64,000 nt of DNA from Tenuifilum sp. 4138str (lineage in GTDB: Bacteria; Bacteroidota; Bacteroidia; Bacteroidales; Tenuifilaceae), in the NCBI RefSeq assembly GCF_041102575.1, contig NZ_JBGCUE010000002.1, positions 186,001-250,000 of the forward strand, given 5' to 3'. The notes beneath the pieces were generated by a model. It saw only the letters and a program-made list of their open reading frames with translations, searched no databases and had not been told where the DNA came from. Below, piece after piece: positions 1,964 through 27,301 of the stretch. The first letter of the stretch is position 1. Each line of letters opens with the position of its first letter. The translations under genes were made by a program, and so were the position numbers.

Positions 1964-4900
1964 ATGAGTGAGGAGATTCTCAAAGCGTTAATGCAACTCT
2001 TTGCAATCATTGCAAAGCAGGACGAAGGTGTTGAGCTCAAGGAGCGTGACTATGTTGTTAATTTCCTCACCCAGCAACTCAACGATGAGGCAGTAAAGGA
2101 ATACATCAGACTCTTTGATGAGCATGCAGGCCTGCTCGACAAAGAAGATAATGCCGAAAACGATGAGGAAAAGGGCAAACGAAAACTTACTTCGGTAAAG
2201 GATTCCGTTCGTATTCTGGGTATTTGTAAGAAAATCAACAAAACTCTTACCCAGAAACAAAAAATCGTTGTTCTGGTTCGTTTGTACGAGCTTATCAATG
2301 CCGACCGCAAGTTTACTGAACAACGAATGGCTATTATCAATACCGTAGCCGAAGTATTTAAGCTTACCAAGGAAGAAATATCGGATATTGAAAATTTTGT
2401 TATAAAAAATTCACCCGAAGAGTTAGACATTCCAAGTATTTTAACCATTCACGATAAACCCTTTACGGGCAAAAACTGCAAGCACATTGGCACCGAAGCC
2501 CTGGATGGTTATATATATATTCTCCAAATAAAAAGCGAGGACCTTTACTTCCTCCGGTGTACAGGCAATGAGGATATTTACCTTAACGGATTACCCATTC
2601 ACAACCGCCGCATCTATCTTTTTGCCAGCGGGAGTTCACTTAAACTACCTAAAGGGAAGCCGGTTTACTACACCGATGTAGTTTCCCACTTCCTGGCCGA
2701 CTCCACGTCAATCCGCATTTCCTACAAAGTAGAAAATGTTGGTTTTCAGTTTAAAACAGGTGATATCGGATTAAGAAACATTTCCTTTTCCGAGGGGCAT
2801 GGTAAGCTGGTTGGTATCATGGGAGCCAGTGGTGCTGGTAAAACCACACTGCTAAACGTACTTGCCGGTATCGAAAAGCCTACCACAGGCCGTGTTATTG
2901 TTAACGGCTACGACCTTCATAATGAAAAGGAGAAACTTGAAGGTGTTATTGGCGTTATCCCGCAAGACGATTTGCTCATTGAGGAGTTAACCGTATTTGA
3001 AAACCTATACTACAACGCAAAACTTTGCTTTAAGGATAAAACGGAGGAGGAACTGGTAGCCCTTGTGGATAAAACCCTTGCAAATCTTGGTCTTTTAGAG
3101 CGTAAAAACCTCAAGGTTGGAACCCCGCTCAACAAGATGATATCGGGCGGTCAGCGTAAAAGGTTAAACATAGCCCTTGAGCTAATTCGCGAGCCCTCCA
3201 TCCTTTTTGTTGATGAGCCCACCTCGGGGCTTTCGTCGCGCGACTCAGAAAACGTAATGGACCTACTCCGTGAGCTAACGCTCAAGGGAAAGCTCATATT
3301 TGTGGTAATTCACCAACCCTCATCGGACATCTACAAAATGTTCGATAACATGGTTATACTGGATACAGGCGGATACATGATTTACTACGGCAACCCTGTT
3401 GAAGCCGTGATGTATTTCAAACGTCTTGATATGCAGATTAACAGCGATGTTGGTGAATGCCCTGTTTGTGGTAATGTAAACCCGGAACTTATCTTCAACA
3501 TCATTGAGGCACGCGTAGTTGACGAATTTGGTCGTTACACTCCCATACGCAAGGTTTCGCCCCAGAAGTGGGAGGAACAATTCCGTGAAAACATTAAGCT
3601 ATCCCACATCCCCGATGAGAAAGCAGAGCCACCCAAAACCCTAAACATCCCGTCGCGGTTTAAACAGTTCCTCATCTACACCAAGCGCGACTTCATGTCC
3701 AAGGTAAGCAACACCCAGTACATTGTTCTTAACCTGCTTGAGACCCCAATTTTAGCTTTCATTCTGGCTTACGTTATTCGCTACATTGCCGACCCAAACT
3801 CTGACATTTACATCTTTTACGAGAACGAGAATATCCCCATATACCTATTTATGGCACTAATTGTAGCCCTGTTTATTGGCTTAACGGTTAGCGCCGAGGA
3901 AATTTTCCGCGACCGTAAAATACTTAAACGCGAGGCATTCCTTAACTTAAGCCGATCGAGCTACCTATTCTCCAAAATATCGCTCCTGCTTTTGCTATCG
4001 GCTATCCAAAGTGCAACTTTTGTAATTATTGCCAATAGCATTCTGGAAATCAGGGGCATGTACTTTGACTACTGGTTGGTGCTTTTCAGCACAGCTGTTT
4101 GTGCAAATCTGCTTGGCCTCAATATCTCCGCAACATTTAACTCTGCCATCACCATCTACATCGTAATCCCTCTGCTCATGATTCCCATGATGGTACTCTC
4201 GGGTGCAATGTTCAGCTTTGAGAAGCTCAACCGTTCAGTGGGAAGCTTTAACCGGGTACCACTCATTGCTGAGTTCATGATTACCAAATGGGGTTATGAG
4301 GCACTTGTTGTTCACCAGTATAAGGATAATGCCTTCCAAAAAATTTTCTACGACATCGACAAGGTAATCAATAATGCCAACTACAAAACGGTTTACTATA
4401 TAGATGAGCTGGAAAAGCGCGCTACCGACCTCATTGATTTATTGCCACAAAAGGACAACCCTGAAGCACAGAAAAAGATTGCCGATAGGCTAGCTGTACT
4501 CCGAAAGGCAATAATAAATGAAACTTCCTATGAGTCGCCTTCAATAACCTTTGATAAACTCAATAAACTAACAATCAATACAATAGACGAAACAACCGTT
4601 TACGCCATATTCGACTACCTCGACAGGCTTAAGAGCCACTACTCCGATATCTATAGCACCCAGTCGCAAAAGCGCGAGCGAATGATATCATTCCTCGTAA
4701 ATAATAACCGGGAACTCTACGAGGCCAAGCGTCGGGCCTACGATAACGAGAGCCTTGCCGACCTGGCAACAAAAACCTTTGAAAAGAACAAGATTGTGCA
4801 ATACGGCGATGAGCTGGTTCAGCAGTACGATCCCGTTTACCGCGACCCAATCCCAAGGCATTACCTCGATTTTCGTTCACATTTCTTAGCTCCCCGCAAG

Positions 4901-5053
4901 CATTTTCTTGGCATGTATTTTGATACTTTCTGGTTTAACCTGGTGATCATTTGGCTTATGACCATAGTATTATATATAACCCTTTACTACGAGTCGCTAA
5001 AAAAATTGCTCGATTTTTTGGGGAAAATTAAAATTCCAACTCTAAAAAAATAA
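1964..5053 (+). CDS. ABCG-like exporter with TerB-like and FHA-like N-terminal regions
   Basis: A 1029-residue fused ABC transporter. Residues 1-150 are helical and resemble a TerB-type domain. Residues ~160-250 are strand-rich with YLNGLPIHNRR and suggest an FHA-like fold (inference). The nucleotide-binding domain follows: Walker A GASGAGKTT near 287, signature ISGGQRKRLNIALEL near 392, Walker B LFVDEPTSGL near 413. Hydrophobic segments at roughly 590-800 form an ABC-2-type membrane domain. A ~180-residue hydrophilic insert then precedes a last membrane helix near 985-1010. CPVCG near 499 could bind metal. Substrate unknown. The 34-base spacing ties it to the SiaABC-like genes. Confidence 0.85.
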   Translation: MSEEILKALMQLFAIIAKQDEGVELKERDYVVNFLTQQLNDEAVKEYIRLFDEHAGLLDKEDNAENDEEKGKRKLTSVKDSVRILGICKKINKTLTQKQKIVVLVRLYELINADRKFTEQRMAIINTVAEVFKLTKEEISDIENFVIKNSPEELDIPSILTIHDKPFTGKNCKHIGTEALDGYIYILQIKSEDLYFLRCTGNEDIYLNGLPIHNRRIYLFASGSSLKLPKGKPVYYTDVVSHFLADSTSIRISYKVENVGFQFKTGDIGLRNISFSEGHGKLVGIMGASGAGKTTLLNVLAGIEKPTTGRVIVNGYDLHNEKEKLEGVIGVIPQDDLLIEELTVFENLYYNAKLCFKDKTEEELVALVDKTLANLGLLERKNLKVGTPLNKMISGGQRKRLNIALELIREPSILFVDEPTSGLSSRDSENVMDLLRELTLKGKLIFVVIHQPSSDIYKMFDNMVILDTGGYMIYYGNPVEAVMYFKRLDMQINSDVGECPVCGNVNPELIFNIIEARVVDEFGRYTPIRKVSPQKWEEQFRENIKLSHIPDEKAEPPKTLNIPSRFKQFLIYTKRDFMSKVSNTQYIVLNLLETPILAFILAYVIRYIADPNSDIYIFYENENIPIYLFMALIVALFIGLTVSAEEIFRDRKILKREAFLNLSRSSYLFSKISLLLLLSAIQSATFVIIANSILEIRGMYFDYWLVLFSTAVCANLLGLNISATFNSAITIYIVIPLLMIPMMVLSGAMFSFEKLNRSVGSFNRVPLIAEFMITKWGYEALVVHQYKDNAFQKIFYDIDKVINNANYKTVYYIDELEKRATDLIDLLPQKDNPEAQKKIADRLAVLRKAIINETSYESPSITFDKLNKLTINTIDETTVYAIFDYLDRLKSHYSDIYSTQSQKRERMISFLVNNNRELYEAKRRAYDNESLADLATKTFEKNKIVQYGDELVQQYDPVYRDPIPRHYLDFRSHFLAPRKHFLGMYFDTFWFNLVIIWLMTIVLYITLYYESLKKLLDFLGKIKIPTLKK

Positions 5054-5090
5054 AATTTTGTATCTTTACTTTTCGAAACAGGATATTAAA

Positions 5091-6017
5091 ATGAAAAAAC
5101 TGCGTTTTATATACTACCTATCGCTGTTTGCAATACTTTCACAAGTTATTACCGCTTGCAACTCGTGTAGCAAACAAGGGGTTGATGTGACACAGGATTT
5201 ATATGTTCCTGACTCAGTGATTGAGGTTGCACCGCCCCAGGTAAGCAAAGCGGTTACTGAGCAAATGATGCAAAATATTTCGTCGCCAGTTGAAACAGCG
5301 GCACTTATTAAAGGGTTAAAAATACCCTTCAATAAAAACTTTCTGGCCAGCACCAAGCAAGCCGAAAAGTTCAACACAAACTTTGAAAAAGCATTTGCCC
5401 TTGGGCTTTATGGTTGCGATTTGGGTTACCTCAACATGTATGAGAAAACCTCGTTTGTGGTCGATTACATCTCAACCATTAAGCGTTTAGCCGATGATAT
5501 CCAGGTAGGTCAATTCTTTGACTTTAATACCCTAAAACGCCTGGCCACCAATAATGAAAACCTGGACTCATTAATCCTTATCTCACAACAAAGCTTCAAC
5601 CGTATTGATAACTACTTGGCTGAAACAAACCGCTCAATGCTTAGCGCTGTTATTGTAGCCGGTGTTTGGGTTGAGGGGGCTTACCTTTCGAGTCGCGTGG
5701 CTCAAATTAGCAATCATCCCAGGATTAGGGAAACCATTGGAGAACAAAAAACCATTCTCAACTTCCTACTTGCCCTCCTAAAGGTTTACGATAAAGATCC
5801 CAACATGGCAAAGCTTATAACCGATTTTGAAAACATCAAAAAGATATACGATGAGGTAAAAATTACTTACGAAGTTGGAGAACCTGAAATGGTGGAGGAA
5901 AACGGAGTTTTAACCTTCAAGCAAACCGATAAGCAAATAATTCAGATGGACGATGAACTCTACCAAAGGTTGATTGTGGGTATACAGGAATTACGTAACG
6001 ATTTATTAAAACTGTAA
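5091..6017 (+). CDS. Predicted lipoprotein of unknown function
   Basis: A 308-residue protein with a lipoprotein signal peptide: MKK, hydrophobic core, then VITAC with the lipid-accepting Cys at 23. The rest is mostly helical and acidic, without a domain I recognise. An in-frame start at 5058 was rejected because it adds a non-signal leader in front of MKKLR. The gene begins 37 bases after the ABC exporter and is followed 13 bases later by another secreted protein, so it is probably part of the same operon. It could be a periplasmic partner of the exporter, which is inference from position only. Confidence 0.75.
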   Translation: MKKLRFIYYLSLFAILSQVITACNSCSKQGVDVTQDLYVPDSVIEVAPPQVSKAVTEQMMQNISSPVETAALIKGLKIPFNKNFLASTKQAEKFNTNFEKAFALGLYGCDLGYLNMYEKTSFVVDYISTIKRLADDIQVGQFFDFNTLKRLATNNENLDSLILISQQSFNRIDNYLAETNRSMLSAVIVAGVWVEGAYLSSRVAQISNHPRIRETIGEQKTILNFLLALLKVYDKDPNMAKLITDFENIKKIYDEVKITYEVGEPEMVEENGVLTFKQTDKQIIQMDDELYQRLIVGIQELRNDLLKL

Positions 6018-12347: not shown

Positions 12348-12448
12348 CAACTCAGCAAATTTTTACAAATATAGTTATTTGGAAGGTAGCCAACTGGTCA
12401 AAAGCAATTGGTTATTGATTAAACGAATATGAAAATGTATTTACCCCC

Positions 12449-12717
12449 TTAAAGCTATGTAAATCTAATATATCAGCCTAATCTGCATTCTATTGAATTT
12501 ACTCTCAACTTGTCATCCTGAGCAGCCTGTCCCGCCCTAGCGGTGAGCGAAGGATCTCATTTTTAGTGTGCAGTGTGCAGTGTGCAGTGTACAGTGTATG
12601 GGGGTGGTTAGTGGTTGGTGTTTGGTTTTTAGTGTTTAGTGTAGGTTAATATAACCAGTGTAAATCTAGAAAATCAGCATAATCTGCGTTCTATTAATCT
12701 AACTATCAAACATCAAC
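12449..12717. repeat. Copy 1 of a ~265-bp composite direct repeat
   Basis: It matches 16431-16693 along its whole length with scattered differences. Order: AATCTGC-type module (12461-12490), a CTTGTCATCCTGAG...GCGAAGGATCTCA module able to pair ATCCT with AGGAT (12509-12560), period-7 tracts (TGTGCAG units at about 12567-12600, then GTGTTTR-type units), and a second AATCAGCATAATCTGCGTTC module (12672-12691). The rest of the 555-base gap 12348-12902 holds no gene that I can see. Confidence 0.85.
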
Positions 12718-12902: not shown

Positions 12903-15900
12903 ATGAAAGCAAATAATGCACTATCCTGGAAAATCCTGATTTTACTGCTGTTGAACTGGTTAGCAATTTCGGGGTTTGCACAAAAAGGAATTCCTTTTAT
13001 TACCAACTTCACGCTCCCGGTGAGCATGAGCACTGATAACTATCAGGTTGTTCAGGGTGATAACAATATGATATATGTTCTTAACCAGAACGGCATTTTC
13101 AGTTTCGATGGGTACAACTGGGAACACCTGCCAGTTGGTGGGCAACCCATGGCAATTACTTATTTAGATAAACTATTTGTAGGTGGCGATAAGGTTCTGG
13201 GTTACTTTAAGAAAAATTTGAATGGAATAAATGTTTTTGTTCCCATAGAGCAGAATAGAACTGAATTGTTTTACCTTTTTCATCACTTTAACAATATTCT
13301 TTACGCTGCCGGCGTTGATGGCATTTATAAAATTCGAAGAGTTGAACCTTACAGGGTTGAAAATTACTATACCGAGAGGGATAGTACCCAAATCATTACC
13401 GATATGTTTAGTGTGGGTGAACAATTATTCATTGTAAAAAACAAATCGGCTTTTTTTAGGGTTTACAAACAGGATGCAACACAAATAAATACTTCAGTTC
13501 TGGGGAATAGCGAGATACTGTTCTCATTTAAACATAACAATGAACAAATTATTGGAACAAGTTCCAATAGAGTTTTCAAATTTGACGGAAAAACATTCTC
13601 GCCAATCATTTTAAAAGACCAGAATTACATTGATGCCAGCTACTTAACAAGCGGTATCTCATTTGATGATAAGTCAATTGCATTATCCACATTAATTGGC
13701 GGATGTGTAATTGTAAATACCATTACCGGCGAAACAAGCCATATCATTAACTACTCCAGCGGTTTACCCGATGATGAAGTTAACGCAATGGGTAAGGACA
13801 GCAACGGAGGACTTTGGTTAGTACATGGAATGGGAATTTCCAGGGTTGATTTATCTGTCCCTATTTCGTCGTACCACCACATTTCGGGATTGCAGGGAAA
13901 TATTCTATCTACAGTAAAGTTTAATGGTTCATTATACGTGGGAACCAGCGATGGGCTATATAGGTTAACTGAAGTACAGAATTACTCTACCAAAACCATT
14001 CAGTTCACTACCCAAAAACCCGTTGTAAAAAAAGTAAAACAAGCTGTTCAGCCGCAACCCCCTCAGGAACCTGAAAAAGACCAACAGACAGCTGCAAAGA
14101 AAAAAGGCTTATTTGCCAGAATCTTTGGTGGGGAACGAGCAGAGCAAATGCCAATGGAACCTAGCCAAATCCATACCAATGAAATTGAAACAGAGCAAAT
14201 AGAATACGAAAAAAAAGTAATCAAAAAGAAAGAGCGCTTGTTGCTCTCAAGCAACTTTATTTACCAGAAAATTAGTGGAATAAGTGGTAAAATTAGCGCG
14301 CTTCAGACCTGGAACAATAATCTTTTAATAGCGTCGAGCACCGGATTATACTATATCGGCATTGCTGATCCAAAGCCCATTATTCCCAGCCAATATATTT
14401 TTAGCATCAATCCAAGTGTTTTCGACAAAAATGTCCTATACATTGGTTCGTGGGGAACACTTTACCGAATTAAATACGAAGGAGGCAATTTAAACCCAAG
14501 GGCGGTATTAAAACTTAACAACGAAAAAATTACATCGGTTTCGGAGATAACCGAATCGGAAATAGTATTTACAACCGATTATAAAGTGTACAAAGCAACT
14601 AATATTAACTCAGGTAACCCCAAACTGATTCCCATTTCCGAAGGTAAATACTCGGTTGTATCGCCTGTTGTACGAAAGTTAGGTGCTGAATACCTGATTA
14701 TTACCCCTACTTGGGTATTTAAGTTTTACCATACTGCCGATAGCATTGGTGCACATCCCGAATATGCCCAACAAACCAATTACAAGGCATTCTACTCTAG
14801 CCCCGAGCAAACCTGGTTAAGAGCCGGACAGATATGGTACCCCTTCCCAAAAACGGAACAGAATCAAAGGATTGCAAAGTACATAGGACTGCTTGACCGG
14901 GTTAACTCTATAAGCTATGCCGATAGCAACGAGGTTTGGGTGGTAAATGGTTTTAGCCAGCTATACAAAATCTACCCAACCAAGCAAAACGATACCCTTA
15001 AAGCGGTTAACCTTTTCGTAAAACAGGTTTTGGATAAATCCGGGAATAATCTTAACACCAATTACGTTGAGCTGGAAGCTAACAACAACGCATTTAAGAT
15101 TAAGCTGGGTGCACCCTTCTACCTGAAGGAGAAAGGCGTGGAATACCAGTTCAAGCTTAAAGGGCTTATGTCCGAGTGGTCCGACTGGGGTAATGTTCCG
15201 GAAAAAGACTTCCCATACTTCCCTCCGGGAAACCACGTCCTGCAGATTCGTGCCCGCGACGCCATGAATAATATCAGCGATATTAAGGAGTACTCGTTTA
15301 GCGTTACCCCTCCAATCTACCAAACAATTTGGTTTTACTCACTGGTTGCAGCCATTGCTGTTACCCTTATTGTAGTAATTATTAGAGCTAGGGAGAAAAA
15401 CCTCATCAAGGAAAAACAAATCCTTGAACAAAAGGTAAAGGAAAGGACAAAAACCATTGAGGAGCAAAAGAACGCCATTGAGAAACAGCGCGATGAGCTT
15501 AAAGTGTTGAACCAGGAAATTCTTCAGCAGAAGGAGGAAATTGAAGCGCAACGCGATGAAATAACATCGCAACGTGACCAAATAATATCGCAGAACCAGG
15601 ATATCATTAAGAGTATTTCGTATGCCCGACGAATACAAACAGCCGTAATGCCAAGTAAGGAAGTTGCCGACATGATACTTAAGGATTACTTTATTTTACT
15701 TAAACCCCGCGATATTGTTAGTGGCGATTTCTACTGGATGACCCAGAAGGGGAGCAAAATAATTGTAGCCGCTGCCGATTGTACCGGGCATGGAGTACCC
15801 GGCGCATTTATGAGCTTGCTGGGAATTACCCTCCTTACCGAGATTGTTAAAAACACCAACGATGTTCGCCCTCACATTCTGCTGAATGAGTTAAGAACCA

Positions 15901-16352
15901 ATATCAAAAAAGCCCTAGCGCAGGTGGGCAAGGAAAACGAAACAAAAGATGGAATGGACGTTGCCCTAAGCGTAATTGATTACGATACTAGCACCCTCCT
16001 GTTTGCCGGTGCGTACAATCCGCTCTACCTGATTAGAGACAGAAAATTGATTGAGTACAAGGGTGATAAAATGCCTGTTGGAGTACATATAAACGAGGTA
16101 GAATCATTTACCCTTCATGAGATTGAGATAAAAAAGAACGATTGCATATACATGTTCTCCGATGGATATGTTGACCAGTTTGGCGGGCCCGATAACCGCA
16201 AGTTTATGTCAAAGAACTTCAAGGAACTTTTGCTTAGTATTTCCGAAAAGGATATGTCAGAGCAAAAAACAATTCTTGACGATACCATTGACCAATGGAT
16301 TGGCCCCCACGACCAACTCGACGATATTCTGGTAATGGGAATACGGCTATAG
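12903..16352 (+). CDS. Receptor-type SpoIIE phosphatase with beta-propeller sensor
   Basis: An 1149-residue protein. A signal/anchor (~1-26) is followed by an extracytoplasmic region of repeated strands resembling the propellers of hybrid two-component receptors. It includes an Lys/Pro/Gln-rich insert near 370-435. A Y_Y_Y-type domain (about 725-800, PPGNHVLQIRARDAMN) precedes a membrane helix near 806-827 and a long coiled coil (~830-910, repeated QRDEI). The C-terminal ~230 residues are a SpoIIE phosphatase: PRDIVSGDFYWM, DCTGHGVPGAFMS, FSDGYVDQFGG, QLDDILVMG. It should pass an outside signal to a cytoplasmic phosphoprotein; the SiaC-like proteins in the window are candidates. Flanked by ~265-bp direct repeats. 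Confidence 0.88.
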   Translation: MKANNALSWKILILLLLNWLAISGFAQKGIPFITNFTLPVSMSTDNYQVVQGDNNMIYVLNQNGIFSFDGYNWEHLPVGGQPMAITYLDKLFVGGDKVLGYFKKNLNGINVFVPIEQNRTELFYLFHHFNNILYAAGVDGIYKIRRVEPYRVENYYTERDSTQIITDMFSVGEQLFIVKNKSAFFRVYKQDATQINTSVLGNSEILFSFKHNNEQIIGTSSNRVFKFDGKTFSPIILKDQNYIDASYLTSGISFDDKSIALSTLIGGCVIVNTITGETSHIINYSSGLPDDEVNAMGKDSNGGLWLVHGMGISRVDLSVPISSYHHISGLQGNILSTVKFNGSLYVGTSDGLYRLTEVQNYSTKTIQFTTQKPVVKKVKQAVQPQPPQEPEKDQQTAAKKKGLFARIFGGERAEQMPMEPSQIHTNEIETEQIEYEKKVIKKKERLLLSSNFIYQKISGISGKISALQTWNNNLLIASSTGLYYIGIADPKPIIPSQYIFSINPSVFDKNVLYIGSWGTLYRIKYEGGNLNPRAVLKLNNEKITSVSEITESEIVFTTDYKVYKATNINSGNPKLIPISEGKYSVVSPVVRKLGAEYLIITPTWVFKFYHTADSIGAHPEYAQQTNYKAFYSSPEQTWLRAGQIWYPFPKTEQNQRIAKYIGLLDRVNSISYADSNEVWVVNGFSQLYKIYPTKQNDTLKAVNLFVKQVLDKSGNNLNTNYVELEANNNAFKIKLGAPFYLKEKGVEYQFKLKGLMSEWSDWGNVPEKDFPYFPPGNHVLQIRARDAMNNISDIKEYSFSVTPPIYQTIWFYSLVAAIAVTLIVVIIRAREKNLIKEKQILEQKVKERTKTIEEQKNAIEKQRDELKVLNQEILQQKEEIEAQRDEITSQRDQIISQNQDIIKSISYARRIQTAVMPSKEVADMILKDYFILLKPRDIVSGDFYWMTQKGSKIIVAAADCTGHGVPGAFMSLLGITLLTEIVKNTNDVRPHILLNELRTNIKKALAQVGKENETKDGMDVALSVIDYDTSTLLFAGAYNPLYLIRDRKLIEYKGDKMPVGVHINEVESFTLHEIEIKKNDCIYMFSDGYVDQFGGPDNRKFMSKNFKELLLSISEKDMSEQKTILDDTIDQWIGPHDQLDDILVMGIRL

Positions 16353-16430: not shown

Positions 16431-16693
16431 TTTAAACCGTGTAAAGCTAACAAATCAGCGTAATCTGCGTTCCCTTGAATTTTCTCTCAACTTGTCATCC
16501 TGAGTGGCCTGTCCCGCCCTAGCGGAGAGCGAAGGATCTCATTTTTAGTGTGCAGTGTACAGTGTACAGGGGTGGTTGGTGTTTGGTGTTTAGTGTTTGG
16601 TTTTTAGTGTTTAGTATTTGGTTAATATTACCTGTGTAAATCTAGAAAATCAGCGTAATCTGTGTTCTATTAAGCTCACTATCAATCATCAAC
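16431..16693. repeat. Copy 2 of the ~265-bp composite direct repeat
   Basis: Same module order and orientation as 12449-12717: AATCAGCGTAATCTGCGTTC at 16452-16471, CTTGTCATCCTGAG...GCGAAGGATCTCA at 16490-16540, period-7 tracts at about 16546-16620, and AATCAGCGTAATCTGTGTTC at 16648-16667. The remaining gap from 16353 to 16914 contains the promoter and boundary described next, and no gene. Confidence 0.85.
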
Positions 16694-16743
16694 GAACAAC
16701 TTCAGGTGTTAAGTAGAGTAGTATAAAAAAAATAAAAAGTTCA

Positions 16744-16774
16744 TTTGATGATTAGTGAAAATATTATATTTTTG
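16744..16774 (+). promoter_or_regulatory. Consensus Bacteroidota promoter ahead of the cassette-like array
   Basis: TTTG at 16744-16747 and TATTTTTG at 16767-16774 are separated by exactly 19 bases, the consensus arrangement. Transcription would run into the array of plus-strand unknown genes that starts at 16915. Confidence 0.65.
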
Positions 16775-16791
16775 AATAAACCTTACAAAAA

Positions 16792-16860
16792 GTACGGTTA
16801 TACACCCAAAATAGATGTATATAATTACTTTTGGTACGGTTATAAACGAGTTGTAGCCAA
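16792..16860 (+). other. Left boundary of the cassette-like array
   Basis: GTACGGTTATA is present twice in direct orientation (16792-16802 and 16834-16844). The second copy runs into AACGAGTTGTAGCCAATG, similar in place and form to the ...CCGTTGTGCACAA and ...CCGTTAGGAACC right ends of the later palindromic elements. CCAAAA/TTTTGG can pair between the two copies. Confidence 0.4.
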
Positions 16861-16914
16861 TGCATAAAACGACCAACAGCCTAATAACGAGATAATTTTA
16901 AAAATAAGATTGAT

Positions 16915-17556
16915 ATGTACTATTTGAAATGTAGTAATTGTGGACACTTTAACGAGGTCAAAACAGAGTATTTAGTTTTTTGTGCAAACTGTAATAAAAA
17001 ACTTGATAACAGTTATTCGGAATGGACTAAACGTAATTCCGACAAGTCATTTGATGATTATAAACAGTTGATTTGTACGACAGAGAAAACAGATTTATCG
17101 AAAGATAAACCAAAATCCAAGAAAATTAAAGGACTAAAATATTGGATTGGATTTACTGTTGCATTTGCAATCTTTTATGCTATTGGACAAATCGGAGGAG
17201 AAAAACTTGCTGGATTATTTCGGAAACCTGCATTTGATAAGGCATTAATGGAAACGGCAAGCGAGATTAATAAATCTTGCCCCATAATGATAGATAATGC
17301 AACAAGATTGGATAATGCGATGGCAATGCCTGATAATGTATTTCAATATAATTACACATTGGTAAGCATGATTAAAGATTCGATTAATATTGACGAATTA
17401 AAAGGTTATCTTGAGCCGACAATTACAAATTTTGTTAAGACTAATCCTGATATGAAGGCAATGCGTGATAACAAGGTAACTGTAAATTATTATTATAAGG
17501 ACAAAATGGGAGTGTATTTATTTACAATATCTGTAAAACCAGAACAATATGAATGA
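16915..17556 (+). CDS. Unknown protein with zinc ribbon and one membrane helix
   Basis: A 213-residue protein of unrecognised family. The N-terminus CSNCGHFNE...FCANCNKK is a four-cysteine zinc ribbon (residues 5-27). A membrane helix follows near 77-95 (YWIGFTVAFAIFYAIG). The C-terminal ~120 residues form an alpha/beta domain with conserved-looking NYYYKDKMGVYLF near the end. It is the first gene of the AT-rich array, lies between two boundary elements, and its base composition differs visibly from the chromosomal genes around the array. Confidence 0.7.
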   Translation: MYYLKCSNCGHFNEVKTEYLVFCANCNKKLDNSYSEWTKRNSDKSFDDYKQLICTTEKTDLSKDKPKSKKIKGLKYWIGFTVAFAIFYAIGQIGGEKLAGLFRKPAFDKALMETASEINKSCPIMIDNATRLDNAMAMPDNVFQYNYTLVSMIKDSINIDELKGYLEPTITNFVKTNPDMKAMRDNKVTVNYYYKDKMGVYLFTISVKPEQYE

Positions 17557-17568
17557 TTGATAATTAAT

Positions 17569-17710
17569 GCACTGGCTACAACACGCGGTCATAAAACATG
17601 CCGGTTTCAGTGGGTTTTCGAGCGTTTCGTCCCGCCTCATGGGTTTGTCACGGGGGATACGGACGCAACCTTGCAATCCGGCACGTTTCATACCGCCAAC
17701 CGTTGTGCAC
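17569..17710 (+). other. Imperfect palindromic boundary element A (attC-like)
   Basis: The two ends are imperfect inverted repeats: ACAACACGCGGTCATAAAAC near the left against the complement of the right end ...CGTTTCATACCGCCAACCGTTGT. An inner stem CCCG/CGGG lies between them. It ends CCGTTGTGCAC. It aligns over most of its length with element B (18556-18690), sharing for example CATAAAACAT, GGTTTCAGTG and ACGGGGGATA. Size, folding and position after a gene resemble integron attC sites, but the core is not a clean GTTRRRY. Confidence 0.55.
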
Positions 17711-17765
17711 AATTATAGAGATCAATGCCGACATGAAAAATTGAACTTTCAAATAATTTTACATA

Positions 17766-18197
17766 ATGAGTAAGGAGAATGAAATAAAAGATTTTTTAAC
17801 GGCTGATTCCTCATCGGTAAAGAAAAAACCAGAAGAGTTATTATCCGTTCCTTCTAGTCCATTCCTAAATATCAAACGTGACTTAAATGAAGAAGATTTA
17901 AAAAGTCCCGCAGTACAGAGATTGCTATTAAGTGAAAACGACAAGCTTGAACATCAGGTTCATAGATTGGAAATTTTTGAAGAGAAGTTCCATTCACTTG
18001 ATAAGGAATGTGCTGTGCTAAAAGAAAAGGTAAGTCAAAATACTGCATTTGAGATTATTTTTACAACATGTATTGCGATTGGCTCTGCACTATGTGGAAT
18101 CTCAAGTTTGTATTGGTCTCAAAAAGGATATATTCTTCTATTAATTGGTTTAGGACTTACATTGGGTGGTATTTTAGCTAAAATTGTTAAAAAATGA
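17766..18197 (+). CDS. Unknown membrane protein with coiled coil
   Basis: A 143-residue protein, family not recognised. A polar N-terminal half with several prolines leads into a coiled coil (~60-90, KLEHQVHRLEIFEEKFHSL). Two membrane helices follow (about 95-115 and 121-140) separated by a tight SQKGY turn. It overlaps the next gene by 4 bases (ATGA), so the two are translationally coupled. Both sit in one cassette-like unit. Confidence 0.65.
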   Translation: MSKENEIKDFLTADSSSVKKKPEELLSVPSSPFLNIKRDLNEEDLKSPAVQRLLLSENDKLEHQVHRLEIFEEKFHSLDKECAVLKEKVSQNTAFEIIFTTCIAIGSALCGISSLYWSQKGYILLLIGLGLTLGGILAKIVKK

Positions 18198-18553
18198 AAA
18201 TTCAAATTCATTCATTTATAGACAAGGGAAATATTAATTCTGAACGGATTGCTTTGAGAGCTTCTGCAGATTGTAATCTTAAATTCTTTTGTATACACTT
18301 AACTTACGAATTAAGTTCAGGTGGCTTCTATAATCAACCTAAACATACTTATTGGTTTCCACCTCAGGATATAAAATCCGGAGATTGGATTGTTATTTAC
18401 ACTGGACATGGTAAATCTTCTAGTAAGAAAAATGAGGACGGTTCAACTTCATATTTTTACTATTGGGGATTAGATAATATTATATTTAATAAACCTGAAG
18501 ATACGATTGTACTTGCAGAATTAAATACATGGCAAACTAAGAATAATAGATAA
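18194..18553 (+). CDS. Unknown small beta-rich protein
   Basis: A 119-residue soluble protein with alternating strands and aromatic residues. KSGDWIVIYTGHGKSSSKK (about 74-92) recalls the core of lamin-tail-like immunoglobulin folds, a weak resemblance only. There is no signal peptide. The start overlaps the upstream membrane protein gene by 4 bases, suggesting a two-protein unit. Function unknown. Confidence 0.62.
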   Translation: MKIQIHSFIDKGNINSERIALRASADCNLKFFCIHLTYELSSGGFYNQPKHTYWFPPQDIKSGDWIVIYTGHGKSSSKKNEDGSTSYFYYWGLDNIIFNKPEDTIVLAELNTWQTKNNR

Positions 18554-18555
18554 CT

Positions 18556-18690
18556 GTACACAACATGCTGGCATAAAACATAGTGGTTTCAGTGTAGTTT
18601 GCAAGCTCGTCTCCCGTTGCCAAGGTCAGTAACGGGGGATAGGTTCGCAGCCACGCAATACGCTAGGTTTCATACACATAACCGTTAGGA
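18556..18690 (+). other. Imperfect palindromic boundary element B (attC-like)
   Basis: Left arm ACACAACATGCTGGCATAAA and right arm GGTTTCATACACATAACCGT are imperfect inverted repeats. The inner stem CCCGTT/AACGGG is perfect. The right end CCGTTAGGA is one base off the integron core GTTRRRY. It is homologous to element A. Confidence 0.55.
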
Positions 18691-18714
18691 ACCATTCTGA
18701 AGAAATTATGATGT

Positions 18715-19884
18715 ATGGATAAAAAAACAACACTTGATATACTTTATCAAGAAAGAAACAGATTAAATCAAAAATATAGTACTCATGGATGGAATTTGTG
18801 GGCTGCAATAGGTGCATTATCTGCTCTAACATGGACATTCTTATCTCAAATTGAAACAAAATCATTTGCAACTAAAGAAGTTATTTCTGTTTTTATTATT
18901 TGTTTTTGTCTCTATTATTTATTTTATATTTCATACTCCTTAATCAAACCTAATCAATTTTCAAAAGAACTAATAACTAAAAGATATTACTATTTCGACA
19001 AAGACTTTTCAAATATCAAGTTTAGTATAATCTCTCATATAATTTTATTTAGTTTTTTTATTTACTCTAATTGGAGTTTAGGTTATTTGAGTGGAATATT
19101 CTCTATAGTTTTTATTGTTTTAAACATTGGAATTATTGTTTATCTAGTATTATTATTATTTTTAAGTATTATCAATATTCCTATACCAAAGGATACAAAC
19201 CCTTCCTTTAAATTTACAACAATACTAATTCTTAGACTTTTAATTATTGGAATTATCTTAATAATAATTGGTTTAATAATTAATATTAGAAGTAAAGATT
19301 TAATTTCTTCAATTAAATTTGGCTTTATAATTTTCGGATTTTATTATTTAATTATTTTATTAAATAATATGTTAAGACCGAATAAAATATTAGACAAAAT
19401 TGATGAACTTGTTGAATGTGCACTTTTCGAAAAGAAAACAAATGAAAATATTTTAAATGAACTTGAAATTTTAATACTAGGATTAGAATTAAGAGCATAT
19501 TTCGAAACAACACTAATAAATTATTTCAATGCTATTGATAAATTTGAGAAACATTGTGAGCTTCTAAATGAAGACATTGATGAATTCAAAACTGCTGAAA
19601 AAGATTTATCAACAATTATTGGTGCTATAAATATTGACAATAAAATAGAAGAGATTTTAAAAAAAGTTGATGTTTTAGGCAATGATATAGATGATATTGA
19701 AAAATATAGCAAAAGGATATTAAACAAAATCGCTACTATTATTTTTTATAAAAACACAAAAGATGATATAGTGAAAATTATTGAGTCGGTTAGATTGAGA
19801 TTTAACGAAAGTAAAGAAAAATATAACATTACAAAGAATAAAGTTTTGTCAATGTTAGAAAACTATAGGAATCTTAAAAGATAA
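18715..19884 (+). CDS. Unknown multi-pass membrane protein with coiled-coil tail
   Basis: A 389-residue protein of unrecognised family. Six or so hydrophobic helices occupy ~25-220 (two near 25-80, the rest ~100-220). A long acidic/lysine-rich helical region follows (~225-389) that is probably cytoplasmic coiled coil. The gene is strikingly AT-rich, more so than any other in the window, which suggests a foreign origin. It is the last member of the array and is closed by boundary element C. Confidence 0.65.
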   Translation: MDKKTTLDILYQERNRLNQKYSTHGWNLWAAIGALSALTWTFLSQIETKSFATKEVISVFIICFCLYYLFYISYSLIKPNQFSKELITKRYYYFDKDFSNIKFSIISHIILFSFFIYSNWSLGYLSGIFSIVFIVLNIGIIVYLVLLLFLSIINIPIPKDTNPSFKFTTILILRLLIIGIILIIIGLIINIRSKDLISSIKFGFIIFGFYYLIILLNNMLRPNKILDKIDELVECALFEKKTNENILNELEILILGLELRAYFETTLINYFNAIDKFEKHCELLNEDIDEFKTAEKDLSTIIGAINIDNKIEEILKKVDVLGNDIDDIEKYSKRILNKIATIIFYKNTKDDIVKIIESVRLRFNESKEKYNITKNKVLSMLENYRNLKR

Positions 19885-20028
19885 AAAACGGTGCCTATCA
19901 GGCTGTTCCTTTCACTGGGGCTTATGACGCAGATGCAGAATATTTATTACATTTAACTAACTTTTTAACGGCGGATAACGCCGCTGGCGGTTAACTCCCC
20001 AGCAGTTTAAACCGCCGACCGTTACACA
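19885..20028 (+). other. Imperfect palindromic boundary element C (attC-like, diverged)
   Basis: Left arm AAACGGTGCC...CACTGGGGCTTA mirrors the right arm, whose complement reads TAACGGTCGGCGG...GCTGGGGAGTTA. A GC-rich inner hairpin (GGCGGATAACGCCGC) lies between. The right end is GACCGTTACACAAT. It has the same layout as A and B but little direct sequence identity. Confidence 0.45.
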
Positions 20029-25802: not shown

Positions 25803-26480
25803 ATGAGCCTTGTAAAATATAGTAAAATCAGTGATTATAAAATTAAAAAAGTTCTTCGACATTTTTGCGCCGATGTTGATGCCACAAAAACCGCATACCT
25901 ATTAGGCATTAACCGGAATACGATAAATCGGCTATACAAGATATTTCGGGAAGCCATATATCGTTCAAGGATTGAGACCCTTCAGGCGATACTGCTCACG
26001 AAAGAATTAGAATTTGATGAGGCCTACTTCGGATCTAAGCGCATTCGAGGCAAAGTGGGTATTCATAAAAGGGGGCGGGGAACCTGGAAGCGTCCAGTTT
26101 TTGGTGTATTCGAACGCAACGGAGAGGTGTACACCGAACTCATTCCCGACAGCAGCCGCAAATCGCTTCAACAGGTAATCCTCAAACGTGTAAGCCCCGA
26201 TGCGGTGGTTTACTCCGATGGCTGGAGGGGGTATGATGGGCTGGTTGACGTAGGCTATAGCAAGCACTTCAGGGTCAATAAGTCCAAGCATTTCTCTGAC
26301 GGGAAAGGCGTTCACATCAATGGCATTGAATCTTTCTGGAGTTTCACCAAAAGGCGATTGTCCAAGTTCAACGGAGTGAAAGCCCACTTTGACCTCCACC
26401 TAAAGGAGTGCGAATGGCGATGGAAAAAGTCGGAAGAACAGATGTTCAAAGAACTAGTGCTTTTGTTGAAACGTGAATAA
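25803..26480 (+). CDS. IS1595-family (ISXO2-type) transposase
   Basis: A 225-residue DDE transposase. An N-terminal helix-turn-helix (AYLLGINRNTINRLYKIFR) is followed by the ISXO2-like domain. Catalytic acidic residues are in LEFDEAYFG, VVYSDGWRGYDG and INGIESFWSFTKRRL. The zinc ribbon seen at the N-terminus of many relatives is absent. TAACTTTG at 25791-25798 just before the ATG could be its promoter, overlapping a GGAAAAGTTA/TAACTTTGTCC palindrome. The frame is intact. Confidence 0.92.
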   Translation: MSLVKYSKISDYKIKKVLRHFCADVDATKTAYLLGINRNTINRLYKIFREAIYRSRIETLQAILLTKELEFDEAYFGSKRIRGKVGIHKRGRGTWKRPVFGVFERNGEVYTELIPDSSRKSLQQVILKRVSPDAVVYSDGWRGYDGLVDVGYSKHFRVNKSKHFSDGKGVHINGIESFWSFTKRRLSKFNGVKAHFDLHLKECEWRWKKSEEQMFKELVLLLKRE

Positions 26481-26843: not shown

Positions 26844-27301
26844 TTATTCATCGAGAATAAAAACATTGTAACTTATCGAAACGGAAAGTGTTAATTGTTT
26901 TTAGAAAGCCAATAGAATTATTACGGACTTTCAGATAAAATGAATGCACGAAAGCACATCAATTGCTAATTTCCATTGGGGTAAGCAGTTAGATAAGTTT
27001 GTTTTTTGTATATTTGGCTTTATCTTTACCGTACGACCACAGTGCTGCTCCGAACTCCCCAACGTATCTTAGCAGCAAAACGTTTATATGAATGAGTCGA
27101 AATGAGTAGGAATAGTATAATTTGAATGAAGTTGATTACGTTAAATCTTAACTGGGATTTTAATTTTTAAGAAAATTAGTCAGTGAAAAAAGTTGTTTAG
27201 ATGTTTTCAGTATTTCCGTTGACCAATCTCAGTTTAACAAATCTTAAATGTACTAATTCCGCCTTACCTGAAAGCAGTTTCTTTTAAGTGAAGAAAAGTA
27301 T
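26844..27301. other. Spacer without visible gene
   Basis: About 460 bases upstream of the transketolase promoter. I see no supported reading frame, tRNA or strong hairpin. Confidence 0.5.

Follow-up and report, generated by a model that had tools for sequence, protein, structure and literature searches.

Remains of a candidate integron-like platform of Bacteroidota in the genome of Tenuifilum sp. 4138str

A cassette-like array in Tenuifilum sp. 4138str

The subject of this analysis is a stretch of 64,000 nucleotides (nt) from Tenuifilum sp. 4138str (Bacteroidota; contig NZ_JBGCUE010000002.1, positions 186,001 to 250,000), referred to below as the window, and in particular a series of genes that are each closed by a long imperfect palindrome. 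An earlier description, made from this DNA alone (the sequence-only reading), had interpreted these as a gene-cassette-like array lacking an integrase, with palindromes similar to the attC recombination sites of integrons. The three palindromes are indeed found where it had placed them, with the endings CCGTTG, CCGTTA, and CCGTTA, and the genes are, as it stated, all encoded on the plus strand, as four open reading frames (ORFs), two of them within the second cassette. Its claim that the first two palindromes (sites A and B) are homologous while the genes are not is also borne out, with ungapped identities of 70% over 80 nt and 79% over 42 nt. What had gone unnoticed was a fourth site (26952-27088), a remnant of a recombinase gene, an attI-like site, and the complementarity between the R'' box of a site and the start of its own cassette.

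The locus opens with the 3' end of an integrase gene (16729-16755, plus strand), which reads KIKSSFDD-stop and represents the last codons of a lost gene for a tyrosine recombinase of a type lacking the I2 insertion (see below). This ending resembles KIKSPFDDL-stop, the consensus of 25 recombinases, and KIKSSFDYL-stop of one relative (L059). At the DNA level, the remnant aligns with further integrase remnants. At the protein level, three of these (L189, L195, and L202) match only briefly, with E-values of 0.2-0.5 that are not significant alone, and the window remnant is absent among the tblastn matches listed, such stubs being too short to score as protein. Immediately downstream is the attI-like site (16756-16850, plus strand), with direct repeats GTACGGTTATA at 16792 and 16834, the centre TATACACCCAAAATAGATGTATA, and the core TATAAACGAG^TT.

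Cassette 1 (16851-17702, plus strand) extends from the G^TT of attI to the G^TT of site A, and its start, GTTGTAGCC, is the exact reverse complement of the R'' box of site A, GGCTACAAC. Its gene (16915-17556, plus strand) encodes a protein of 213 amino acids (aa) with weak zinc-ribbon similarity, and site A (17574-17708, plus strand) scores 92.7 bits (E 2.5e-19) with R2, a covariance model described below. Cassette 2 (17703-18684, plus strand) starts with GTT followed by GTGCACA, matching the R'' box TGTACAC of site B at six of seven positions, and carries gene a (17766-18197, plus strand, 143 aa) and gene b (18194-18553, plus strand, 119 aa), followed by site B (18556-18690, plus strand; 49.8 bits, E 2.2e-9), whose stem is weaker. 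Cassette 3 (18685-20021, plus strand) starts with GTTAGGAACC, which fits the R'' box of site C, GGTGCCTATC, at eight of ten positions by eye; the AAC of this site is degenerate, hence it stands outside the count of own-start pairings given below. The cassette-3 gene (18715-19884, plus strand) encodes 389 aa, with an N-terminal half that is hydrophobic by eye, and is followed by site C (19891-20027, plus strand; 48.0 bits, E 5.8e-9). Site C represents a sub-type of which the same genome contains many close copies, on contigs C2, C3, C5, C9, and C16, at 77-98% identity (98% over 44 nt). The lone fourth site, also on the plus strand, scores 45.6 bits (E 2.1e-8). A gene for an IS1595-family (ISXO2-like) transposase is located at 25803-26480, approximately 0.5 kb ahead of it.

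Site family, strand, and cassette boundaries

Covariance searches, a check proposed with the sequence-only reading, reveal that similar sites are widespread. A 17-nt core pattern, allowing at most one mismatch, produced 41 matches in 18 of 60 genomes, including the genome of Tenuifilum sp. 4138str itself (hereafter the own genome), compared to three for a reversed control, and part of the 41, by eye, are not sites. An alignment of 17 sites (A4), among them four of the own genome (A, B, and two others), and without those of L011, L014, L017, L020, L031, and L035, served to build the covariance model R1, which, with sites counted at E 0.01, detects them in 41 of the 60 genomes, the own genome included. 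A second alignment (A6), of 60 R1 matches from 80 recombinase loci, gave the model R2, which contains no window sequence, but whose members were picked by R1, with A and B in its training set. At E 0.01, R2 detects the four sites in the window, all on the plus strand, and at E 0.001 it detects 38 sites on 10 contigs of the own genome. Across 296 Bacteroidota genomes that are at least 90% complete, searched with filters that drop weak matches, sites are present in 153, representing 86 of 140 genera. They are also found beside unrelated genes, a property on which the sequence-only reading had made its proposal depend; one example is a metal-efflux region of the own genome (L006). In that part of contig C3 (44-106 kb; L006, L061), eight co-oriented sites are located at 44-101 kb, with metal-efflux genes among them, all on the same strand as an I2-less recombinase of 587 aa, located at 105-106 kb, which groups with IntI, the integrase of canonical integrons.

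The R' core of canonical integrons follows the consensus GTTRRRY. The cores in the window (GTTGTGC, GTTAGGA, and GTTACAC) had been noted as deviating from it, and this turns out to be usual for the family, in which GTT and usually a purine are kept, the next two positions being free. The sites share a conserved stem: in A6, 88.3% of the stem cells are standard pairs, 18 of the 19 pairs change on both sides, and double changes occur in 403 cells, a number that falls to 91 or fewer once the partner is slid. One stem position never pairs, with A opposite C in 58 of 59 sites. The non-Watson-Crick cells comprise 102 A.C, 11 G.T, and 29 others, or, minus the nearly invariant position, 44 A.C versus 11 G.T. 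As a top-strand A.C corresponds to a T.G wobble in the bottom strand, it is the bottom strand that appears to be kept foldable; the more stable fold is also that of the bottom strand in 46 of the 59 sites (Wilcoxon p 6e-6). Folding of single sequences, with z-scores (bottom/top) of -2.52/-0.37 for A, +1.03/-0.80 for B, and -1.74/-2.68 for C, is weak evidence, and comparison across genomes is therefore needed. Judged in this way, the sites appear to possess the R'' and R' boxes, the conserved structure, the bottom-strand fold, and the unpaired features of attC. Canonical attC sites act from the bottom strand, and folding and R''/R' pairing are typical of them (PMC2727003).

Cassette boundaries were assessed in 63 pairs of neighbouring sites drawn from 109 sites (three without AAC and one without GTT), neighbours more than 6 kb apart being omitted. 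In integrons, the R'' box pairs with the start of its own cassette, since both meet in the cassette circle. When the 7 nt preceding AAC are scored against the 7 nt that follow GTT, the latter taken as reverse complement, the mean is 6.17 of 7 for the own cassette start, 2.70 for the next cassette, and 2.68 for other cassettes, and none of 20,000 permutations reach the own-start value. Five of the 63 pairs score 2 or less, where perhaps an intervening site was missed. This result bears on the possibility that the palindromes are dispersed repeats (terminators, repetitive extragenic or miniature inverted-repeat elements, or ends of rolling-circle insertion sequences) that just happen to follow genes. 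The many copies per genome, 38 in the own genome, would agree with such an origin, as would the IS91-type transposases near some of the plasmid loci (L231, L232). However, dispersed repeats offer no place for complementarity to an own cassette start that is mostly 0.4-3 kb away, and they leave unexplained a strict strand and position with respect to one recombinase family and an attI core, and so this origin is hardly credible.

A recombinase family without I2

A scan of genome contigs with the recombinase returned at least 583 relatives, and 80 loci were kept, 77 of them from Bacteroidota according to their record titles, including cultured Flavobacterium. With R2 at E 0.05, all of the 90 sites at these loci are on the strand of the recombinase, 86 of them downstream and four upstream (three in L130 and one in L134), and this downstream excess exists despite a larger upstream flank (627,799 versus 234,872 bases). 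The sites are co-oriented across the 80 loci, as are the genes in the window. One example is L063 (in G008), where the recombinase is followed by an attI-like site and then by six genes, with one site after each, all on a single strand. Another example is the Chryseobacterium plasmid NZ_CP041688 (L230), which encodes a full-length recombinase with five R2 sites downstream on the same strand. By reading of the listing, 29 of the 80 contigs (L095-L174) stop no more than 320 nt past the recombinase match; thus these arrays seem to be places at which draft assemblies break. As to attI, its core is recognized after the recombinase stop codon in 60 of the 71 loci with enough sequence, against a background of 9.1% of random stretches, and the start behind attI fits the first R'' box at six or more of seven positions in 27 of 28 loci, the exception (L142) probably being a misassigned core. 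The window, with its attI-like site beside the integrase end and insertion at G^TT, presents the same arrangement.

The recombinase and the sites also co-occur. In the same 296 genomes, the recombinase is present (at E 1e-60) in 96 and sites in 153, with 85 possessing both and 132 neither (odds ratio 15, p 6e-20). Among the matches listed, 48 site/recombinase pairs on a single contig were counted by eye, 42 of them within 25 kb; of these close pairs, in 37 the site is downstream on the same strand, in none is it upstream on the same strand, and in five it is on the opposite strand. The latter come from G098, G106, and G256, where short I2-less enzymes are divergent from the arrays, which is the classical orientation, and in G256 attI fits the first site at seven of seven positions by eye.

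The enzymes are tyrosine recombinases related to IntI. The integron integrase model TIGR02249 is matched above the cut-off in one of the 60 genomes (G032) and in none of the other 59, the own genome included; instead, many genomes encode a recombinase matching it in two stretches that flank unmatched positions at approximately 181-237. In four such proteins the E-values are 5e-58 to 4e-64, in two stretches each, all below the cut-off. Three of the four have as their best NCBIfam model NF040815, which is named “site-specific tyrosine recombinase/integron integrase” (223, 222, and 219 bits, with a cut-off of 220), and by this protein name NCBI already hints at integrons. The I2 insertion, or patch, is present in the IntI of L039 and absent from all nine other recombinases aligned, these relatives standing in for the window, which keeps only the end of the gene. 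The catalytic residues of tyrosine recombinases are R, K, H, R, H, and Y. They form invariant columns across 25 aligned recombinases. The closest structures to a predicted one (mean predicted local distance difference test score 82.5, predicted template modelling score 0.53) are XerA/XerC-like ones and IntI4 (2a3v). A tree of 45 rows places the 28 main enzymes in a single clade (100/99), apart from IntI (100/100), and two of five longer I2-less enzymes, one of which is encoded in the own genome, as sisters of IntI (97/97); the tree is unrooted, and its Xer branches are long. The own genome does encode a tyrosine recombinase outside the window, as it was suggested to look for: the copy on contig C2 (107765-108837) has an open C-terminal part of 281 aa and an N-terminal piece in another frame, and broken recombinase copies are present as well.

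Could this then be an ordinary integron, or an ordinary cluster of attC sites lacking an integron integrase (CALIN), with attCs served in trans by a canonical, I2-bearing IntI and the I2-less recombinases as bystanders? Folding, the bottom strand, and R''/R' pairing are canonical attC traits (PMC2727003), G032 does encode an IntI above the curated cut-off, and integrons are listed for Bacteroidota in a review and in a survey (PMC8618304, PMC2426708). On the other hand, 59 of the 60 genomes lack such a match, the recombinase adjacent to attI is I2-less in both orientations seen, and the attI core and the fit of the first cassette are found directly behind the I2-less enzyme, all of which makes an IntI acting in trans improbable. 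The host XerC/XerD have also to be considered as moving the cassettes, in the manner of pdif modules or integrative mobile elements exploiting Xer (IMEX), in place of the I2-less integrase. The own genome encodes Xer-like proteins (C1:213466, C5:34263), and the best structural matches of the I2-less enzymes are XerA/XerC-like; yet the sites are bound, in place and in strand, to the I2-less family, and, judged by this placement and by the co-occurrence of sites and recombinase, we regard Xer-driven movement as very unlikely.

Overall, the locus in the window is very probably what is left of a Bacteroidota integron-like platform, as suggested by its parts with their order and orientation, by stem covariation and the bias towards the bottom strand, by the cassette boundaries, by differences between strains, and by the finding of one cassette, that of tet(X2), in two contexts (see below). 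In such a platform, a tyrosine recombinase of approximately 340-390 aa, with an extra N-terminal domain and without I2, would capture circular cassettes at an attI located directly behind its own stop codon. It would cut at G^TT, acting on the bottom strand of the attC-like site in single-stranded, folded form, and excision would restore the circle in which the R'' box pairs with the start of its own cassette. As the integrase in the window is reduced to its last codons, the array here would depend for any movement on an integrase from another source. Catalysis, the single-stranded nature of the substrate, and the identity of the enzyme as this recombinase, not XerCD or a canonical IntI, are what we infer. 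The sequence-only reading had offered a choice between a CALIN-type cluster and a distinct system of Bacteroidota, and each of these holds in part: the array is CALIN-like in having three sites and an integrase 3' remnant with no integrase gene (as judged with R2, the sites being of the new family), and distinct in its own attC family and its I2-less recombinases.

A number of observations weigh against this interpretation. I2 has been reported as necessary for cassette capture by IntI and as unseen in other proteins (PMC7790495), and thus cassette capture by I2-less enzymes conflicts with the current model, even if, according to the same paper, direct proof that I2 caused the single-strand activity is lacking (PMC7790495). 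At E 1e-60, 68 of the 153 site-bearing genomes are without the recombinase, and 11 of the 96 recombinase-bearing genomes show no site. Likewise, the Chryseobacterium plasmid NZ_CP094530 (L231) encodes a full-length recombinase with no R2 site in the stretch examined, the same-species locus with the remnant (L182 in G060) has no R2 site, and neither does a Spirosoma record with a distant tet(X)-like gene (L254). Relatives of the cassette genes are rarely found beside a site (one of eight loci scanned, out of 12 outside the own genome, for two genes). Some of the 80 loci are near-copies by eye (L111/L112, L157/L170), so the counts are not fully independent. The model R2 was trained on recombinase-adjacent sites, though strand and position were not used, and its specificity rests on Bacteroidota genomes; A6 was fitted to the structure of R1, which biases the pair counts towards that structure. 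Finally, sites B and C fit R2 far worse than A does, and when folded as single sequences they do better on the top strand, the bottom strand of B folding no better than shuffles.

Known systems, resistance genes, and the history of the locus

Resistance genes appear to be among the cargo. In plasmids of Empedobacter and Sphingobacterium (L252, L253), tet(X2) (3998-5164) has an R2 site on both sides (3789/3851-3986 and 5179-5313; E 1e-11 to 6e-11), and the R'' box fits the own cassette start at seven of seven positions in both plasmids. The two records share a sequence that begins 20 nt ahead of the annotated gene, two bases in front of the core's G, and ends 145 nt behind it, at the final T of the core. 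As far as sequences can tell, tet(X2) forms a precise cassette of this type in both contexts, and identity stops at the cores. Relatives of tet(X) are present in 295 plasmid records; of the three Bacteroidota ones inspected among them, these two possess the cassette and the distant Spirosoma one (L254) lacks it. In Acinetobacter (L228, L232), tet(X3) is located behind a truncated relative of the recombinase, with the same cassette start and with the 5' half of a site after the gene, both by eye, and in a Klebsiella plasmid (L229), blaVEB-3 follows a recombinase tail and an attI-like core, also by eye; neither at the tet(X3) loci nor at the blaVEB-3 locus does R2 detect a whole site. In a similar case, described in a 2026 paper on Riemerella, aph(3')-IVb enters the chromosome together with 27 bp of 5' and 140 bp of 3' sequence; no flanking homology is involved, the 3' part has an attC-like fold, and the paper leaves the mechanism unidentified (PMC13148043). 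The likeness is one of description, and enzyme, attI, and family are not identified there (PMC13148043).

With canonical integrons and CALINs, the system shares an integrase, an attI, co-oriented cassettes, G^TT cores, the pairing of R'' with the own cassette start, and integrase-less arrays, and with canonical attC it shares sites mostly of 130-138 nt with a foldable bottom strand. Unlike in canonical integrons, the recombinases lack I2 and mostly possess an extra N-terminal domain, attI follows the 3' end of the integrase gene with the cassettes on the same strand (being divergent in G098, G106, and G256), and R' is GTT plus mostly a purine in place of GTTRRRY; the nearly invariant A.C mismatch in the stem is unlike canonical attC. 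As read from its sequences, this is a system that works like an integron, yet falls outside the canonical integrons with respect to I2 and GTTRRRY. The “reverse” integrons of Spirochaetota carry canonical IntI. They are similar in that their integrase gene is reversed with respect to classical integrons (PMC9668308). The proteins themselves may be members of the “integron-like” subgroup of tyrosine recombinases of Smyshlyaev et al. (2021; PMC8138268), although the accessible portion of that work ties neither arrays nor sites to I2-less members (PMC8138268).

A search of the literature on Bacteroidota integrons, I2, and resistance, with preprints and most subscription journals outside its reach, returned no description of this system, and the sole “attC” in the accessible text of one paper is a direct-repeat sequence (PMC12561888). 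In the survey of 2008, a protein had to contain the additional domain to count as an integron integrase (PMC2426708), the paper on archaeal integrons treats this domain as a defining trait (PMC9668308), and IntegronFinder 2.0 reported a single complete integron for Bacteroidetes proper, that of Salinibacter ruber, in addition to those in Chlorobi and Ignavibacteriae (PMC9024848). As the recombinases in question lack I2, a survey requiring I2 would miss them.

We lean towards the proposition that Bacteroidota possess a phylum-wide second kind of integron, in which I2-less recombinases act on folded single-stranded attC, and that tet(X) and blaVEB reached Proteobacteria from its pool. If this is true, a platform with sites in about half of the 296 sampled genomes would have been missed by definition, and the I2-less system would either have solved single-strand recombination independently or have kept a stage that preceded I2, the latter option being suggested by the two “long” I2-less enzymes that are sister to IntI. 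Natural I2-less enzymes would make the origin of single-strand recombination in integrons testable, and the system would provide a way for tet(X), a last-line resistance gene, to be mobilised.

The history of the locus can be traced in part through close relatives. In two members of the genus, the flanks are closer together: they are 0.1 kb apart in G003, versus 7.9 kb in the window, and 0.8 kb apart in G002, versus 8.7 kb, the spans in the window including the SpoIIE-type gene (12903-16352). Of the other members, G001 aligned at the MeaB side only, and the contigs of G004 and G005 stop at the locus. A genome of the same species (G060) has, by eye, the recombinase end and the attI-like sequence followed by other genes, including a cytosine-methyltransferase-like one. 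The three genes are thus not always inherited together; constant joint inheritance is what the sequence-only reading had named as speaking against it. It seems that the integrase gene in the window was lost while the array stayed behind. A truncated integrase end with attI recurs, at the DNA level, in the own and the same-species genome (window 16647-16850, L189, L195, L201, L206, and L202), with partly shared sequence upstream of the break, which gives the impression that the platform spread in its truncated state.

As to the cassette genes, the cassette-1 gene has matches in 11 of 148 genomes searched, the own genome included, three of them to the N-terminal part only, and none in the genus members G001-G005, and gene b of cassette 2 is present in two of the 148, again including the own genome. 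None of the four ORFs has a Pfam match above the cut-off, and a scan of seven window proteins (not of every ORF) returned no HUH transposase. BLAST of the array gave one match of 39 nt among phages and zero among plasmids, and at the gathering threshold Rfam detected two tRNAs only. Finally, a dispersed intergenic repeat (GTGTAAATCTA..AATCAGCGTAATCTGCGTTC) flanks the SpoIIE-type gene, at 16439-16490, at 16634-16685, and, by eye, at 12440-12700.

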